A stretch of 64,000 nucleotides of DNA from Lineolata rhizophorae (Eukaryota; Ascomycota; Dothideomycetes; Lineolatales; Lineolataceae), in contig MU001672.1 in the NCBI GenBank assembly GCA_010093515.1, positions 398,087 through 462,086 of the forward strand, written 5' to 3'. The stretch's first letter is position 1. Each line of letters begins with the position of its first letter. The position numbers and the translations under genes were made by a program. This document shows, one piece after another, positions 10,270 to 46,459 of this stretch. The notes below the pieces were generated by a model that saw only the letters and a program-made list of their open reading frames with translations, did no database searches and was not told where the DNA came from.

Positions 10270-12128
10270 ATGGACAAAAGCAGTGGCGATGGAGGAAACG
10301 TCTTCCTTGTTCGCCTGGTTCAAGTGTACGAATCATTTCGGCGAGCTGAGCTGGAAGCGATTGCGGACTTGCTGGAGTTCAAGATGGATATTCTTGACTA
10401 CAATGACGATGTATGCCAAACCTTGACTTCGAAGTGTTCTTGGAAACGTCTCGATATTTTCAATGTCCTTTTCTTTTTCTGACCTACATTCTCATTGTTA
10501 TTCTTTTTCAAGTTTCAACATTAGGTCGCGTTGTGACATTTGCTTCGTCCCACCTACGTTTATTTTGTTTTGTAGATGCGTTTCAACGAAGCTCACTAAA
10601 ACTCAGTCACCTTTCTGCCTTGTTCGTCTTCCCTCGATACAAAATGCTCGAGCACTCATCTCACGAACCATAATCGCCCACGCCATCTACGTACTTTGGG
10701 GCTCTGGGTCTGATTACCCTTCCCTGCGGACCTCTGTCCGAGAACAGAGCGCTCACTTGTGGGCCCCCTTTGCTGAATCATCCTTCCGTTTCGAAATCGA
10801 CTCTTTCCGGGGCAAGCGTAGCATGAAAGAACAGCGATCCATAATAGAATCATTTAGCTGGCTACCTCTGAACGGTCCCATCGTAATGCGCGGTGCGGAA
10901 CTTACGCTCACCGTCTTCGAGGACTGGGCCGCCGGGGATCAGAAGCGGAGGAGTCAGGAGCAGAAACCAGATTCAGAATCGCAAGACCCCGAAAGCGCAA
11001 TCGCCTCCAGCTCCTTGCCTCGACCTCCACAACCCAAACGCCTCTACCTTGGCCAGCTAATAGCGGAATCCGGTCGTTCCCACGCCCTCGCGAAGTACGA
11101 CCTCAAGAAGCGTGTTTACGTCTCGACCACGTCTTTCGCGGCTGAAATCGCCCTAGTGACGGCCAACATGGCGCATGCGGCCCCGGGAAGGCTTTTGTAT
11201 GACCCGCTAGCCGGGACGGGCAGCCTGCCAGTTGCTTGCGCGCACTTCGGCGCCATGACGTGCGGGTCCGATATCGACGGGCGCATGATTAGAGGAAAAG
11301 GCGGTCGAAGGAGCGTCGTGGGGAATTTTGAGCAGTATGGGTTTAAAGAAAGGTGGTTAGACGGGTGGGTATCAGACCTGACGAACTCGCCATTAAGAGG
11401 GCTTGGTGATGAGGAGGCGACTAGAAGGGCGGGATGGTTGGATGGGATCGTATGTGACCCACCATATGGAGTAAGGGAGGGGTGTAAGACGCTGGGAAAG
11501 AGGAGAGAGGAGAGAAATGCGGTAGTAGAGGGCCCTGTGTATATTGATGGAAAGTTGTCACACTTGTGAGTATAATTTTATTTTCGCGTTTTTGGTCCTT
11601 GAAGCGAGCCACACATCGACTACTAATCATTTTCTAGACTAGATGGATATGTTCCGCCGAAGAAGCCTTACAGCTTTGATGCTATGCTAGACGACATTCT
11701 AGAGTTTGCGGCCGTTATGCTGGTTGAAAACGGTCGATTAGCTATGTGGGTGCCGACGGCAAATGAGAACAATATTGCACTAGTTACGCCTATGCATCCG
11801 CACCTTGAACTCGTGAGCGAGTGCATACAGTCATTCAACAAATGTACGTGATTCGCAAACACAACTGAGCTCAGCTGCATTTCATTCTCCCAATTACTGA
11901 CGGAGAAGCAAAGGGTCCAGACGTCTATTGACCTACCGACGCCTACGAGCTGGGGAGATCGATAGGTCTACTAAATCTCGGAAGCGTACATACGGCACGG
12001 GAGTCACGGCAAATGAGCTCAATTCGTTCAGGAAGAAGGTAAGAGGTTAATATATTTCTATTAAGGCACTTAATCCTAACTCACCTTTTGCGCAGTATTT
12101 CGAAGGATTCAAGCCCACTCAATCATGA
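10270..12128 (+). CDS. trm11: tRNA (guanine(10)-N2)-methyltransferase catalytic subunit Trm11
   Basis: Catalytic partner of Trm112. It uses SAM to methylate the exocyclic amine of G10 in cytosolic tRNAs. Five exons (10270-10410, 10607-11565, 11638-11843, 11914-12038, 12096-12128) give 487 aa. The N-terminal THUMP-like region shows VRLVQVYESFRRAELEAIAD and then SPFCLVRLPSIQNARALISR. The SAM site is YDPLAGTGSLPVACAHFGA, about two thirds along, and the catalytic motif IV is CDPPYGVREG. The C-terminal part runs DGYVPPKKPYSFDAML and ends FRKKYFEGFKPTQS, matching yeast Trm11 in layout. The intron phases agree (0, 2, 1, 0), and branch-like CTAAT or CTAAC precedes two of the acceptors. The 10411-10606 intron (196 nt) is the longest. 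A tRNA with G10 lies 1.2 kb downstream; that is coincidental. Confidence 0.92.
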
Positions 12129-13356
12129 TGGAAGTGACGATGTCATTGAGCAAAAGACTCGATTTAATAGATATCTTCGAGCCTCTCTGACTCGTGACCC
12201 TTATTGTTTACGCTAAAACCAATTTGGGAGGCACTGTGCGGCTGGTCAAAGAACCCAGCTGCGGAGACAAACGAACTCCAACTTCGGCTTCTTGTACAAT
12301 AGGTCCGACCGAGGCTGTTCTCCTTAGCAAGCCACTCAATATTGATCTTGCGCGTCTCCAGATAGGAAGTCCGGAATATGATGTGACTTGGGTGTTAGCG
12401 TATGTATAGTTCCCAGCTAGCAGCATCGCACTGAAGTGTGATACTGTGCCAGTCTTTTGGCCAAGTTGATTAGCTACAGGCTAGGATACGCTAGTCCTAA
12501 CATTGGGTGTTGTACCCTCGTCAAAGATAGCAACACTGAGAATCGGTGGAAATCAAAGACAGCAGTATAAATTCGACGGCAGCATCACAGTCTACGATAA
12601 TGATCCTGAGATGATTGGGGACAAAACCATGTGTTTCGAAGGAATGGTTGGCACGGCTCGTTAATGAACAGTAAAATAATCGCCTTAACAACTCGAGCTA
12701 TAGACCATGCATGAGCTATCACTACCTAAGCTGTACCTTCGACGATTAAAAGCTGTAGATTAATTTGCCAACGTAAGATTCGGAAATATCATAATTCTTT
12801 TGGTTTCTCCATGGTCAGCTTATAGTCTTTGGGAAGGTGTCCAACATTTTTAGAATACGCACTATATGCGGTTTGGCGCCCAGCACTCTAAAGTCGCATA
12901 CAAGTATAAATAGTTTGCACTACTCCCACCCCCTGATTTTTGAATAGGCTTCTAGTCCTTGATCCTCTCAGCAATTATCCAGGGTGCAAGTGCAATTGCA
13001 CTCAAATGGCAGCAGGTCACGATGTTGCTATTTCATGGGAAAGGAGAGGATTGGAGAGTTTCTATTTTTTCACTTCTTCGACTACCGTAGAAACCATGGG
13101 CAATTAATTTGAATGTGTTTGACGCACGCGAATGGCTGGTAAAGTCCGATATTGCTTGGACTCAATTAACCTAGCAAATTGAAAACAACAATGTTTAGTG
13201 GTTTATTAGGTAAAATGTTAGGGCTCGGGTGCTAAGTATCCGTGGTGGGAATGAAGGCGGGTTTTAAGAATTAAACCGAGGAACAGTATTGTTAGCGATA
13301 TTCAGCATTCGAAGGTAGTAAAAGATGATGTTGAGCATGGTATAAATATGGGTTAG
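12129..13356. other. AT-rich spacer downstream of TRM11
   Basis: About 1.2 kb of AT-rich DNA with no supported gene. One 71-codon open frame (12194-12409) has no recognisable content. I saw no repeats or inverted ends. Confidence 0.45.
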
Positions 13357-13362
13357 AAAAAA
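13357..13362 (-). terminator. Pol III T-run terminator of tRNA-Arg
   Basis: Six consecutive T on the minus strand, 12 nt past the tRNA discriminator base, within a wider T-rich stretch. This is a normal Pol III stop signal and suggests the interrupted tRNA gene is transcribed. Confidence 0.7.
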
Positions 13363-13374
13363 TAAAGAAGAGGA

Positions 13375-13499
13375 CACCCCAGGTGGGGCTCGAACCCACA
13401 GCCTCCAGATTAGAAGTCTGGCTAAGAAAATATTAGTTGATTTTTTGGTTACAGTCGCTTACACATAAACATACCGCGCTACCATTGCGCCACTAGGGC
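13375..13499 (-). tRNA. tRNA-Arg (anticodon TCT) with a 53-nt insert at 26/27
   Basis: After removing 13422-13474 the minus strand folds as a complete cloverleaf. The acceptor stem GCCCTAG pairs with CTGGGGT (one G-U at 1-72 and one U-G pair). The D arm is GCGC-AATGGTA-GCGC. The anticodon arm is CCAGA-CTTCTAA-TCTGG with anticodon TCT. The variable loop is AGGCT, the T arm is GTGGG-TTCGAGC-CCCAC, and the discriminator is G. Box A (TAGTGGCGCAATGG) and box B (GGTTCGAGCCC) are intact, and a T6 terminator follows. The odd feature is the insert: eukaryotic nuclear tRNA introns sit at 37/38, but here the anticodon loop is uninterrupted and the extra sequence lies between base 26 and the anticodon stem. 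It may be a working gene with a novel intron or a recently disrupted copy. Confidence 0.8.
13422..13474 (-). other. Spliceosomal-intron-like insert inside tRNA-Arg
   Basis: This 53-nt insert begins GTATGT (the favoured fungal 5' splice site), carries ACTAAT as a branch-like site about 15 nt before its end, then a T-rich tract and TTCTTAG. Length, ends and branch spacing match the mRNA introns of the neighbouring genes. I saw no evidence of a bulge-helix-bulge across the junctions, but I checked only by eye. Confidence 0.6.
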
Positions 13500-14616
13500 A
13501 GAGCATTATTCAACCTAAAATTCGACCTGTTTAACTTATATGCAAAGGTAAAATATTACTTTTGATCTATCACAAAATGCCTATCCAGGCAAAGACTAAG
13601 TCAATCTAATCGCGAAATGTTAATTTCTAGAGCGCCCCGTTCGAGCCACTTACTCATCCTAGACTCTCTCACAATGGATAGCCATTATTACCATAGACTC
13701 CTCAAAATAAAGTCTCGGCTTTATACATCGTGGCGCTGCATGAAGATTGTGTAAAGCACGTATGGGTAAAGGTCTTTAAAATAGGGACTAGTTGTTAGTG
13801 CACATTGGTTGCGGATTGTTTAGAGCTTGGGATCAAGGCTTTGGTCAAAATAGCAGAAGTAAAAACTTGACTTTCGTGTCGTCTGAGCAAAGAAAGGCAC
13901 ATAAATGCCATAGAAGATTAGGTGGGGCACAGTTCGAGAAACGCAAATCGTAGAGTTGTCTTCCTTGAGTGACTCTCATGGGATGAAACGGCACTATTAC
14001 ATGAAAGAGCTATTTTCAACTAAACTACCTAGGTAATAATTTTTAGCGGCGCTACAAAATGAGACGGAGAGGGACTTCTATGCGTGTAACCCTCTCGTGA
14101 GGCCTTGACAAGCTAAAATACCCCGAACGTTCTGGCAAGATCTATTGGCTGCGCCGCCGGTACGCAGTTAAAGCCTGCCTGTGTGCTATCTCGCATTCCG
14201 ATCTATCTATGCCATTGATAATGAGGATGTCCGTATCTTGCGGAGAAGCTGGGCAGGATGCAGCAATATCTGGATGGAAAATAAAATTTTGGAGCGAAAA
14301 TAATAGTCTGAAAAGCCTGACAGACAAATATGAAGAGATGGATGGTTTCATGCGCGAGAGACGAGAGACAAGGGAAGTTGAACTTGGTGGAGTAGCCGCA
14401 ACGGGCAAGGCGGCCGCTAGGGTTGTGGGCCCTGCCCACTATATACAGTACATAGGCCCTACATCCGCCAACGGCGGGCACCGTGCACATCGTCATCACC
14501 CGGCAACAATTAATCGGACGACCGACCGACCCCCCCGGCTCTGCTCCCACTTTCGCTGCGTGCGGCACAATGCGCCCGCGTCCACGCATGGCCGCTTTTT
14601 GTTCCGCACTACGGTA
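13500..14616. other. Spacer between tRNA-Arg and Mdm1-type gene
   Basis: AT-rich up to about 14100 and then GC-richer. It holds the upstream flank of the tRNA and the promoter and 5' UTR of the sorting nexin. The nexin frame stays open back to 14209, but that extension is unlike any known N terminus. Confidence 0.45.
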
Positions 14617-17600
14617 ATGGACCGCCTCCGTCGCAGAGATGTGATCCTAGCCTCCATCGCCGCTTTCGTCGCCTGGGGCTTCGTCACTCACTGGGTCCCG
14701 CCACTTCGCTTCCTGCCCTACGCCTACGTCGCTGGCGTCGCTTCCGCGCTCGGCCTCTACCTCTGGCTAGTCCTTTCGACGGCAAAATGCAATGCTCGTC
14801 CAGGTGCAGGAGGGGTGGGTGGGAACAGCGCGTTTCGTGGGCCCAGGAATGTCGCGTTCCTGTCGCCGGCGCTGTGGAGGGCGGAGAAGAGGGCACTTAA
14901 GAGGAGGGCCGAATACAAACCGGTTTCGATATACCCGCAGTCGAAGAAAATCTCGCGGAGCATCGACGAAATCCTGGGCTTGATTGCGCGGGATTTCGTG
15001 CGGAGCTGGTACGGGAATATCAGTCCCCGCCCGATGTTTCCAAACGAGGTGGATAGGACGGTTCGGGCTGCGCTGGTGAACATTCGGGAAAGGCTACTGC
15101 AGGTCGACCTTGTGGGCATGGTTGTGTCGAGAGTGGTGCCGATAATAACGAGCCACCTGAAGGATTTCTACGAGGCAGAGAAGCTAGTCCGTGGGAGGCG
15201 GCTCACACTAAATGTGACGGAATCGGAGGAGCTCGATCTCGCCATTGCTGGCAAGTTTCGGGATGGAAAAATTCACCCGGCAGCTTCGTTGACATATTCA
15301 AACACGAAGCACATCCAACAGCAGTACCTAAGAGGCGTTGTCATGAGACTGCTACCGAAGGTTCTCCCAGCGAACATGACGACTAGCACTGCGGCCGCTA
15401 TATTGGTCAAGGAAATTGTTGCATGTGCCGTTTTATTCCCGTTGTTTCAACTTTTGGCGGACCCAGATACTTGGAATCAACTGATAGAGAACTATGTAAG
15501 TAGATTAAAAAAAAGCCACCACCCATGAACTTTTAGTTTAACAACGGTAGGGCCGCACCGTACTTCAAGATCGCACGACTGTGCGCAAGCTCCGAGCCGC
15601 CCTAGATGAGCATGCCCCGGCATCGCCCAAGGCTACCAGGTCGCAGTTCCCTAAGCTTAGTCCCAACGACAATGAACGGATGTTCGAAAGGTTCATTCGA
15701 GCAATCAAGCGTTGCAATAGTCTTGCCGATGCTCGCCGATTCAGAAGTGAAGTTGCAAGCGAGCTTCGCAAGGAGTCAGCGGTAGAGGGTCAAGATCAAG
15801 TATACTTGCGTCGTCTAGAAGCTGGCAAGCGTGTTCTTGATCAGAGGGTCGCATACCTAGGTGCCGGTGGGTCGACGAAGAAATCACGGTTACCGGTGCA
15901 GCCCTTGCCCAACAGTGCTACGCCTCAGACGTCATCCCGACTAGAAAATGCTTCACTCAAAGACGTTCTCTACGATGCCTCAGGCCTGTCGTACTTCATG
16001 GAGTGCATGGATCGGCAGGGTTTGATGCGCCTTGTCCAATTTTGGATTGTCGTAGACGGCTTCCGCAACCCTCTCGAACTAGACACAGATGATCCGCGAG
16101 AGACGCTCGGGCAGTATCAGAAATGGTCCGATTCGGATCGTATAGACTTGGCTCAAATCAATGAGGCGTACTTGTCAAAGCCAGAGCTCAAGATACCAAG
16201 CGCATCACGCCAAGCCGTGAAGGACTTTCTCAAAGCAGGATCAAATGCCACACCACTACAGTACGCAACTGCGAGAAGTGCTGTTCTGAAAGCTCAGACG
16301 GCCATATATGAGACCATGCAGCACCCTCACTTCGACAACTTCAGGAAATCAGACCTCTATTTTAAGTGGCTGGCCTCTGACGACAGGACCAAAGCATCGT
16401 CTCTCTCCCCCAAGACGACCGACGATATCCCGGACATGGCCAGTATCATCAAGGAACCCGAACGACCGACGGCAAAACACGGAGTAACTTCTGCAAACCT
16501 CAGATTTCTCCAGCCTGATCTTCGCAGGACTGCTGCCTCGTCTTCTGACCTGAAAGGCAGTGGAGGGAAGCTAGTAGATCCTGGTTTACCTGCTAGGCGG
16601 TCGCTCGATGATGGCAGAGCTCCGTTGTTTGATGATGATTATGATTCCGACCCTCTCGCTCGTTCCACGGCGAGTCTCGAGTCTGAACCACCTGCAGGTA
16701 ACGACGTGCAGGTAGTCGATGCTATGCAGGCGGCGTTAAACGACATTATGGAGAATGAGGAGCATGACAAAGACTCGCTATTCTCTGATCTCAGCTTGCA
16801 CTCACCACAAGATAACGACTCCACTCGAGGATCATTAGATCTCCCGCGCGCAGCTTCTCCGGCCCCTAGGAAGGATGCAGAAAAGCCTAGCTTGGCATCT
16901 TTAGGTCTCGTCAGCACACCCAAACGGCACGGTGCCGTGTTCTCTGATGATCTTTTCGGCGACGAACAAGAGAAATTTATTGAAGACGAACGGGAAGACT
17001 CGGAGGTGGATGAGAAGCCTATTGAAGATGAGATCCATGAAGCAGCTCCTGGTGACCTTGGCCTAGCTGAAGCGATTGATGCACTTTCTCTCGACATCGA
17101 GAGACTGGTTACTCAAGAATCAATTGTTGACTCACTCACAAGGAAGGCCGAGCTCACAAACAACGCGGCGGAATTACGGATTCTGAAGAAGTCCAAGGCT
17201 AGTTTACAGAGGGAAATCCACAGGAAGGAGCTTCAGAGGCAGCAATACATTGTGCAAGAGAGTGAAAATAGTTTGTATGGGCGCGCTTCGGTGACGATCC
17301 AATCAATCATGCTGGGAACCGAAGACGACGGGAAGGAATACGCGCTGTGTGAGTACTTTGTAATCGACACTAGCTACTCTTGTGCTAACAATTAATTTTA
17401 GATGTAATTGAGGTAAAACGTCAGGCCGGCGAACTGATGCCGGCGGCCGCGTGGGTGATAACTCGAAGATACAGTGAGTTCCATGATCTCAACAAGAGAC
17501 TCCGCGCCCGCTACCCACAAGTTCGGAATCTCGAGTTCCCACGGCGACAAATGGTTCTCAAGCTCCAAAAAGACTTCCTACAGAAGCGACGGATGATGCT

Positions 17601-45247: not shown

Positions 45248-46459
45248 TCAATTACCGCAGTCGTTGAGCTGGAGAACGTTGAGAGTAACAGGCTCGCAAT
45301 ACGAGGCGTAGGTCCTGTCGTACAGATTGTAGAAATCCCCCGAGAGACACTGATACCAAACAGCTGAGCCACCAAGGGCCAGGCTACCGTTGCCGCAAAC
45401 GGAGAAGCCCGAAGTGTAGATCGCTCCAGATTGGGGTGGGCTGTCGAACTGAAACTGGTAGTTGGACGCAATGTAGCCGGTACGGCCCATGGAGTCCTTG
45501 AGAATGCCGTCAGAGAGGGTGAGGATTAGGGTGCTGCTAGTCTGGCAGGCAACCATGCCGGAGCCGTTCATGGAGACAGAGTTCGAGGGAGCGGCCTGCG
45601 GTTGGCCGTCGCCGATCTGGCTCACTGGGGCACCAGTAGGTGCTTGCGGTTGACCGTCGCCGATCTGCGAGATTGGCGAGGCGGTGGCGCTAGGCGCCTG
45701 GGGCTGGCCGTCGCTGATTTGGGAGATGACCGCAGCATTCTGACCGGGAGCTTGGGGCTGACCATCATTGATCTGGGACACGGCTGGAGCAGTATTCTGA
45801 GGAGCTTGCGGCTGTCCATCGCTGATTTGAGACATCGCCGATGCTGTATTGTGAGGTGCCTGAGGTTGGCCGTCACTGATCTGGGAAACAGCGGGAGGGG
45901 TATCTTGAGGCGCCTGTGGCTGACCATGGCTGATCTGGGAGACGGCGGGGGCAGACTGGGATGTCTGTCCCGACCCCTGGGGCTGGTCATCACTAATTTG
46001 TGTCGCTGGCTGACCCGTTGCCGTGGGAGCCTCGACCCGCCCGCCCGAAATCTGGCCCACTCCAATTACGGTGTGCTCTGTTGGGGCCTGGATTTGGCCG
46101 TCGGAGATCTGAGTGGCAGCACTACCGGTGGGTGCTTGTGGCTGGCCATCGCTGATCTGAGTGAGTTCAGCTCCAGATCGAGTTCCAGCTTCAGGTTGGC
46201 CACTACGAAGACTTGGGTTAGTAGACGATGATATTTTTGATAGAGGATGGACAGCTCACTCCGCAGTCTCGGCAACTGCTGCGCCCTGTACGAGCGGCTC
46301 GCTCAAACCCATTACCGCGATTCCAAAAGACCCGCCATAGTTCGGATTGCACCCTGCTGGAGCTGCTCCGCCCGGTGCGATAGCTGAAGTGACCGCCTGC
46401 GGGAATGGCGACCCCACGACGTGGAGAGCAAATACAGATGAAAACCAGAGAGAAAGCAT
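45248..46459 (-). CDS. PIR-type secreted cell-wall protein
   Basis: Exons (minus) 46459-46260 and 46202-45248 give 384 aa. A signal peptide is evident (MLSLWFSSVFALHVVGS, cleavage near residue 17). From about residue 66, roughly twelve units of 10-17 residues repeat the PIR motif S/T-Q-I-x-D-G-Q-x-Q-A (for example SQISDGQPQAP). In yeast the first Gln of such a motif forms an ester with beta-1,3-glucan, anchoring the protein covalently to the wall. Three units are degenerate (ISGGRVEA, ISDDQPQG, ISHGQPQA). The C-terminal domain of about 110 residues has four cysteines (MVACQTSS, FSVCGNGS, WYQCLSGD, ASYCEPVT) plus one near the end (NDCGN), close to the conserved PIR tail. The intron falls exactly at a repeat edge (D-GQPEA). 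Confidence 0.88.
45594..46202 (-). repeat. PIR repeat tract
   Basis: About twelve tandem copies coding Q-I-[SGN]-D-G-Q-P-Q-A with short Ala/Thr/Pro spacers. Unit lengths range from 11 to about 20 residues. The two central copies, SQISDGQPQAPHNTA and SQISDGQPQAPQNTA, are nearly identical, suggesting recent unit expansion. Confidence 0.8.

Follow-up and report, generated by a model that had tools for sequence, protein, structure and literature searches.

Within the window (the whole 64-kb stretch of DNA that was analysed), a cmscan search with 4,227 Rfam families matched the minus strand at 13499-13375 to the tRNA family RF00005 over the full length of the model (38.5 bits, E = 1.5e-4), and this was the sole Rfam match of the window, at the gathering threshold as well as at E values up to 5. 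The uncut gene is 125 nt long, with 53 extra bases (13474-13422) sitting after the D arm and base 26 and before the anticodon arm (Table 1). This is the placement proposed in the preliminary description of the locus, which had put an insert between bases 26 and 27; the minus-strand coordinates given there, and the motifs read in the insert (GTATGT, ACTAAT and TTCTTAG), also proved correct.

The tRNA gene is embedded in an AT-rich stretch (12130-14100, 42% GC) that contains no stop-to-stop ORFs of at least 110 aa. No clear RIP signature was detected in this stretch, where one index stood at 1.16 (1.17 in the window), and TpA/ApT was somewhat higher in the AT-rich flank than in the window (0.99 vs 0.79). 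The neighbouring plus-strand gene (10427-12128) is Trm11-like, with a UPF0020 domain and weak PDB matches (E about 0.005) to tRNA (guanine(10)-N2)-dimethyltransferase, and its product looks like Trm11, the tRNA guanine-10 N2-methyltransferase; that a tRNA-modifying gene adjoins an odd tRNA is probably a coincidence. Elsewhere, the window encodes the fungal Zn2Cys6 and PIR families, the latter as a minus-strand cell-wall protein (45248-46255) with eight matched PIR repeats, arrayed as 54-bp tandem repeats, and a PIR1-like C-terminal domain. The best matches of the Rpl26 encoded in the window are 7r81 and 7olc, which are presumably the Neurospora and Chaetomium ribosomes. Together with the Zn2Cys6 and PIR families, they point to a filamentous ascomycete.

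Table 1. Parts of the interrupted tRNA-Arg(UCU) gene and possible Pol III signals on either side of it
Feature	Positions	Strand	Remarks
TATAA, possible upstream Pol III promoter element	13536..13540	-	starts 41 nt before the mature 5' end
5' exon of tRNA-Arg(UCU), positions 1-26	13475..13499	-	acceptor 5' strand, D arm, base 26; box A (TGGCGCAATGG) starts at 13492
Insert, 53 nt, U2-type spliceosomal signals	13422..13474	-	donor GTATGT 13474-13469, AACTAAT branch site, TTAG acceptor ending at 13422
3' exon of tRNA-Arg(UCU)	13375..13421	-	TCT anticodon arm, variable loop, T arm, acceptor 3' strand; last base G; box B (GTTCGAGCC) starts at 13395
T6 run, likely Pol III terminator	13357..13362	-	begins at the 13th base past the tRNA end

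Comparing tRNA finders with and without the insert, as the preliminary description had proposed, showed that cmscan recognizes the tRNA in the window as it stands, and that ARAGORN, which called no tRNA on the unaltered window, reports a 72-nt tRNA-Arg(tct) when 13422-13474 is cut out. The excision leaves a complete cloverleaf with boxes A and B and the T6 run, as previously claimed; all 21 of 21 stem pairs hold (19 Watson-Crick and 2 G.U), the anticodon loop is an uninterrupted 7 nt, and the tRNA itself has 64% GC, compared with 28% in the insert. When ARAGORN was allowed introns on the uncut gene, it returned a tRNA-Ile(UAU) with a 32-nt anticodon-loop intron; we rejected this candidate, which has two T.T mismatches in its anticodon stem and leaves over a perfect anticodon arm, pushed into the variable region.

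ARAGORN proved permissive. From 2,040 excision products it made 842 tRNA calls of one type or another, and 128 of these were Arg(tct), among them a second GT..AG excision (49 nt) that leaves four extra bases. We therefore used a strict cloverleaf template instead, which took in T33 and the TTC of the T loop, the remaining conserved bases being judged by eye. Among the 5,912 single excisions (lengths 1-99) of the 125-nt gene, only two satisfied the template, and both yield one and the same product from registers 1 nt apart. The cloverleaf by itself thus places both ends of the insert to within 1 nt, with splice signals playing no part in the choice, and one of the two registers reads GT..AG (GTATGT...AACTAAT...TTAG).

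Boxes A and B and a T run that is likely the terminator, all expected of a functional nuclear tRNA gene, accompany this tRNA-Arg(UCU). The starts of the two boxes are 97 nt apart (44 nt without the insert). TATA plays a role in fission-yeast tRNA genes, and the TATAA upstream of the 5' exon could be such an element; because a TATAA falls at -45 to -20 by chance at 63 of 1,840 points (3.4%) of the surrounding AT-rich stretch, it counts as weak evidence.

The ends dictated by the cloverleaf coincide with splice consensus signals. For comparison, 12 introns of the window's mRNA genes were placed by protein joins and used to build a splice-site profile; they lie in genes encoding eIF3h-like, PXA/RGS/PX/Nexin_C sorting-nexin-like, patatin, sugar transporter, Rpl26, CK2-beta, GcvT and Trm11-like proteins (of 17 anchor pairs, 5 could not be joined and were left out). 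Two of these placements call for comment: the donor of the second Trm11-like intron (11848-11920) is weak and its placement may be wrong, and the long 176-nt intron of the minus-strand GcvT-like gene (20947-20772) was picked for its protein join over a higher-scoring, in-frame 47-nt alternative with the same donor. Against this profile the insert scored 17.8 bits, within the range of the window introns when each was left out in turn (11.8-22.4 bits) and equalled or exceeded by 5 of the 12. Donor, branch site and acceptor of the U2 type used in the same genome occur in order and at normal spacing, with the branch A 11 nt before the end of the insert (9-22 nt in the window introns), and the length of 53 nt equals that of the shortest window intron (17349-17401) in a set spanning 53-176 nt. 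The preliminary description overstates the likeness in saying that the insert cannot be told from the window's mRNA introns: GTATGT serves as the donor in 1 of 12 of them and CTAAT as the branch site in 2 of 12, and the GC content of the insert, at 28%, is below their 34-57%. A second donor-like word, GTAAGC, lies 12 nt into the insert, and its use would leave 12 extra bases.

How often such a score arises depends on whether the ends are held fixed. Only 3 of the 127,896 53-mers of the window reach the score of the insert, namely the insert itself, the window intron of equal length (17349-17401) and a 53-mer beginning at 12400; this last (12400-12452, plus strand, GTATGT...GTGCCAG) follows the Trm11-like gene and may be a UTR intron or a chance occurrence. 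Shuffling the insert gave its splice score in 3 of 200,000 trials, a chance of about 3e-5 when two registers are allowed. When the length is allowed to vary, the window contains, on its two strands, 54 donors from which an intron of 40-100 nt can score as well as the insert; as equally good introns of free length are this common, the argument depends on the tRNA dictating where the insert ends.

These figures also bear on the idea that a tRNA-like stretch has arisen by chance and received a random insertion. The locus is a single one and the abundance of free-length intron-like stretches would suit such an origin, but the E value of the cmscan match, the single product that satisfies the strict template and the splice score obtained at fixed ends all speak against it, and we regard it as extremely improbable.

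We next consider which machinery might remove the insert. No catalytic core of a group I or group II intron matched in the window at E values up to 5, where the tRNA model was the only Rfam match, and 53 nt is too short for either class. The insert does not occupy the canonical position of introns handled by the SEN endonuclease (37/38), lying instead at 26/27 with the anticodon loop intact. As for the bulge-helix-bulge, which the preliminary description had singled out as the mark of the tRNA endonuclease and which we defined as a 4-bp helix with a 3-nt bulge on either side of it, located at the junctions, no fit was found in either register: in register 0, the central helix forms 3 of 4 pairs and the inner and outer helices 1 of 4 each, and in register -1 the central and inner helices form 1 of 4 pairs each and the outer helix 3 of 4. 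Many tRNA introns of the Guillardia nucleomorph are described as having no defined motif (PMC3978253), which limits the weight of the missing bulge-helix-bulge as evidence against the endonuclease. A non-canonical intron that relied on the tRNA endonuclease for cutting and on tRNA ligase for joining would moreover have company in the ectopic tRNA introns known from red-algal nuclei and nucleomorphs (PMC4090602, PMC3978253), and the three central pairs of one register would fit it. However, the helices are incomplete in both registers, and the resemblance to splice sites would have to be a coincidence of about 3 in 200,000 per register, making this route quite improbable.

The signals in the insert are of the ordinary Pol II type, and the tRNA sits in about 2 kb between two genes, leaving room for a Pol II transcript (an mRNA leader or lncRNA) that would run through the tRNA gene on the minus strand, with the intron being spliced only there. 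Against such a transcript, the insert ends exactly where the cloverleaf needs it to, the adjoining genes on both sides are on the plus strand, and no stop-to-stop ORF of at least 110 aa overlaps the locus. We consider this explanation very improbable.

Judging from the sequence, the reading that we favour, and hold to be probable, is that the insert is a spliceosomal intron of the U2 type, lying between bases 26 and 27 of a nuclear tRNA-Arg(UCU) gene in a filamentous ascomycete and predicted to be excised by the spliceosome, which is the machinery most likely to remove it. In this model, boxes A and B would direct Pol III transcription of all 125 nt of the gene, perhaps aided by the upstream TATAA. 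Since the insert sits in the linker between the D and anticodon arms, the D, anticodon, T and acceptor arms would all be able to form in the precursor, and the spliceosome would then join G26 to C27, as for fission-yeast U6 and lichen-fungus rRNA. The intron itself would probably have come from reverse splicing or from a mobile (introner-type) intron.

Several observations weigh against the spliceosomal reading. A Pol III transcript has neither the cap nor the CTD that help mRNA splicing. For the uncut RNA, the most stable structure predicted (-37.1 kcal/mol) is 9 kcal/mol better than its cloverleaf (-28.1 kcal/mol), and misfolding of the precursor is possible in this model; the modelled cloverleaf has the same energy with or without the insert, an equality that is built in, as unpaired multiloop bases cost nothing. 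To these may be added the 97-nt spacing of the boxes, the second donor-like word GTAAGC and the 54 free-length donors.

Of the three options laid out in the preliminary description, dependence on the spliceosome is thus the one backed by the anatomy of the gene, in which fixed ends and splice signals coincide, and a recently disrupted copy is the strongest rival, although we judge it unlikely on balance. Here a spliceosomal, perhaps mobile, intron would have landed in one of several Arg-UCU genes, which would yield little or no mature tRNA, either being silent or having its precursor degraded. Fungi usually have several genes per isoacceptor, a circumstance that favours this explanation, and the spacing of box A and box B has been doubled. 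In 11 exon stretches, read in the frames with fewest stops, AGA accounts for 39 of 4,892 codons, so by decoding rules some working Arg-UCU gene should be needed, which could be another gene. Insertions in the D or T arm of one of many synonymous eukaryotic tRNA genes are regarded as supposed pseudogenes in a review (PMC4090602), which counts against the spliceosomal reading and for a disrupted copy. The gene nevertheless shows no decay of stems or boxes, with no mismatch in the 21 stem pairs and with both boxes and the T run present, and the splice signals are likewise intact. The same picture would be expected just after a disruption, but with both the tRNA body and the splice signals undamaged, that event would have to be very recent.

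A stronger form of the spliceosomal reading, which we put forward tentatively and rate as possible but short of even, is that maturation of this tRNA obligatorily needs the spliceosome; if this were the only or main Arg-UCU gene, the decoding of AGA would depend on pre-mRNA splicing, and two pathways described as separate would become coupled. Nuclear tRNA introns are held to be handled by one protein enzyme, mostly at one position. If the spliceosomal reading is true, even a Pol III transcript that is very short, folds tightly and has a first exon of 25 nt would be within reach of the spliceosome, and tRNA would join U6 and rRNA as structural-RNA hosts in which to study intron gain, for example by reverse splicing. 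In addition, tRNA finders that allow introns in the anticodon loop only would miss or miscall such genes, since ARAGORN gives either nothing or the wrong isoleucine tRNA here.

Searching the literature by title and start of abstract, we found, among the matches listed, no published case of a spliceosomal or mRNA-type intron in or near tRNA genes, in a collection where subscription journals are mostly outside and a case could be missed. In viral and prokaryote contigs, there was no match to a tRNA body with a GTRNGT insert or with 3-33 nt between exon words, and in viral contigs none to exon words 34-64 nt apart or to the 3' exon alone; these negatives are expected of a fungal gene, and such non-fungal collections carry little weight.

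U6 introns occur in fungi other than Schizosaccharomyces pombe, the species that offers the closest parallel in a Pol III transcript. Its U6 snRNA, made by Pol III, has an mRNA-type intron (Tani and Ohshima, cited in PMC10484740), and is thus, like the present gene, a Pol III transcript of an ascomycete with a spliceosomal intron, one thought to have arisen by reverse splicing. Unlike the present case, U6 is a part of the spliceosome and bears its intron near catalytic bases, whereas here the host is a tRNA with an internal promoter and tRNA end processing. A second precedent, absent from the preliminary description, comes from lichen-forming fungi, where spliceosomal introns are described in nuclear rDNA; yeast spliced a 57-bp example from Cladonia grayi out of a Pol I transcript (PMC8527467). 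These are likewise short spliceosomal introns in a fungal structural RNA gene, with removal from a non-Pol II transcript in the lichen case (PMC8527467), and they differ in that the host there is Pol I rRNA and here Pol III tRNA. Together, the U6 and rDNA introns indicate that the reach of the ascomycete spliceosome is not confined to Pol II transcripts.

The introner-like elements of fungi (named in PMC8476143) offer a possible route by which an intron could land in a non-coding gene. Introners exist as many near-identical copies in a genome, and within the 64-kb window no second copy of the insert was found (longest shared word 11 nt).

Canonical nuclear tRNA introns share with the insert their setting in a nuclear tRNA gene, and differ from it in position (37/38, against 26/27 with an intact anticodon loop), in their bulge-helix-bulge and in lacking its splice-site consensus ends. 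The tRNA introns of Cyanidioschyzon and of nucleomorphs resemble it in interrupting eukaryotic tRNA genes at non-canonical positions (PMC4090602, PMC3978253). Those of Cyanidioschyzon are tied to the bulge-helix-bulge and the tRNA endonuclease (PMC4090602), and those of Guillardia are only 3-24 nt long, with a splicing mode given there as not known (PMC3978253), in contrast to the 53 nt and the spliceosomal signals found here. Ectopic spliceosomal introns are thus already known from genes for structural RNAs, and what would be new here is the tRNA as host.
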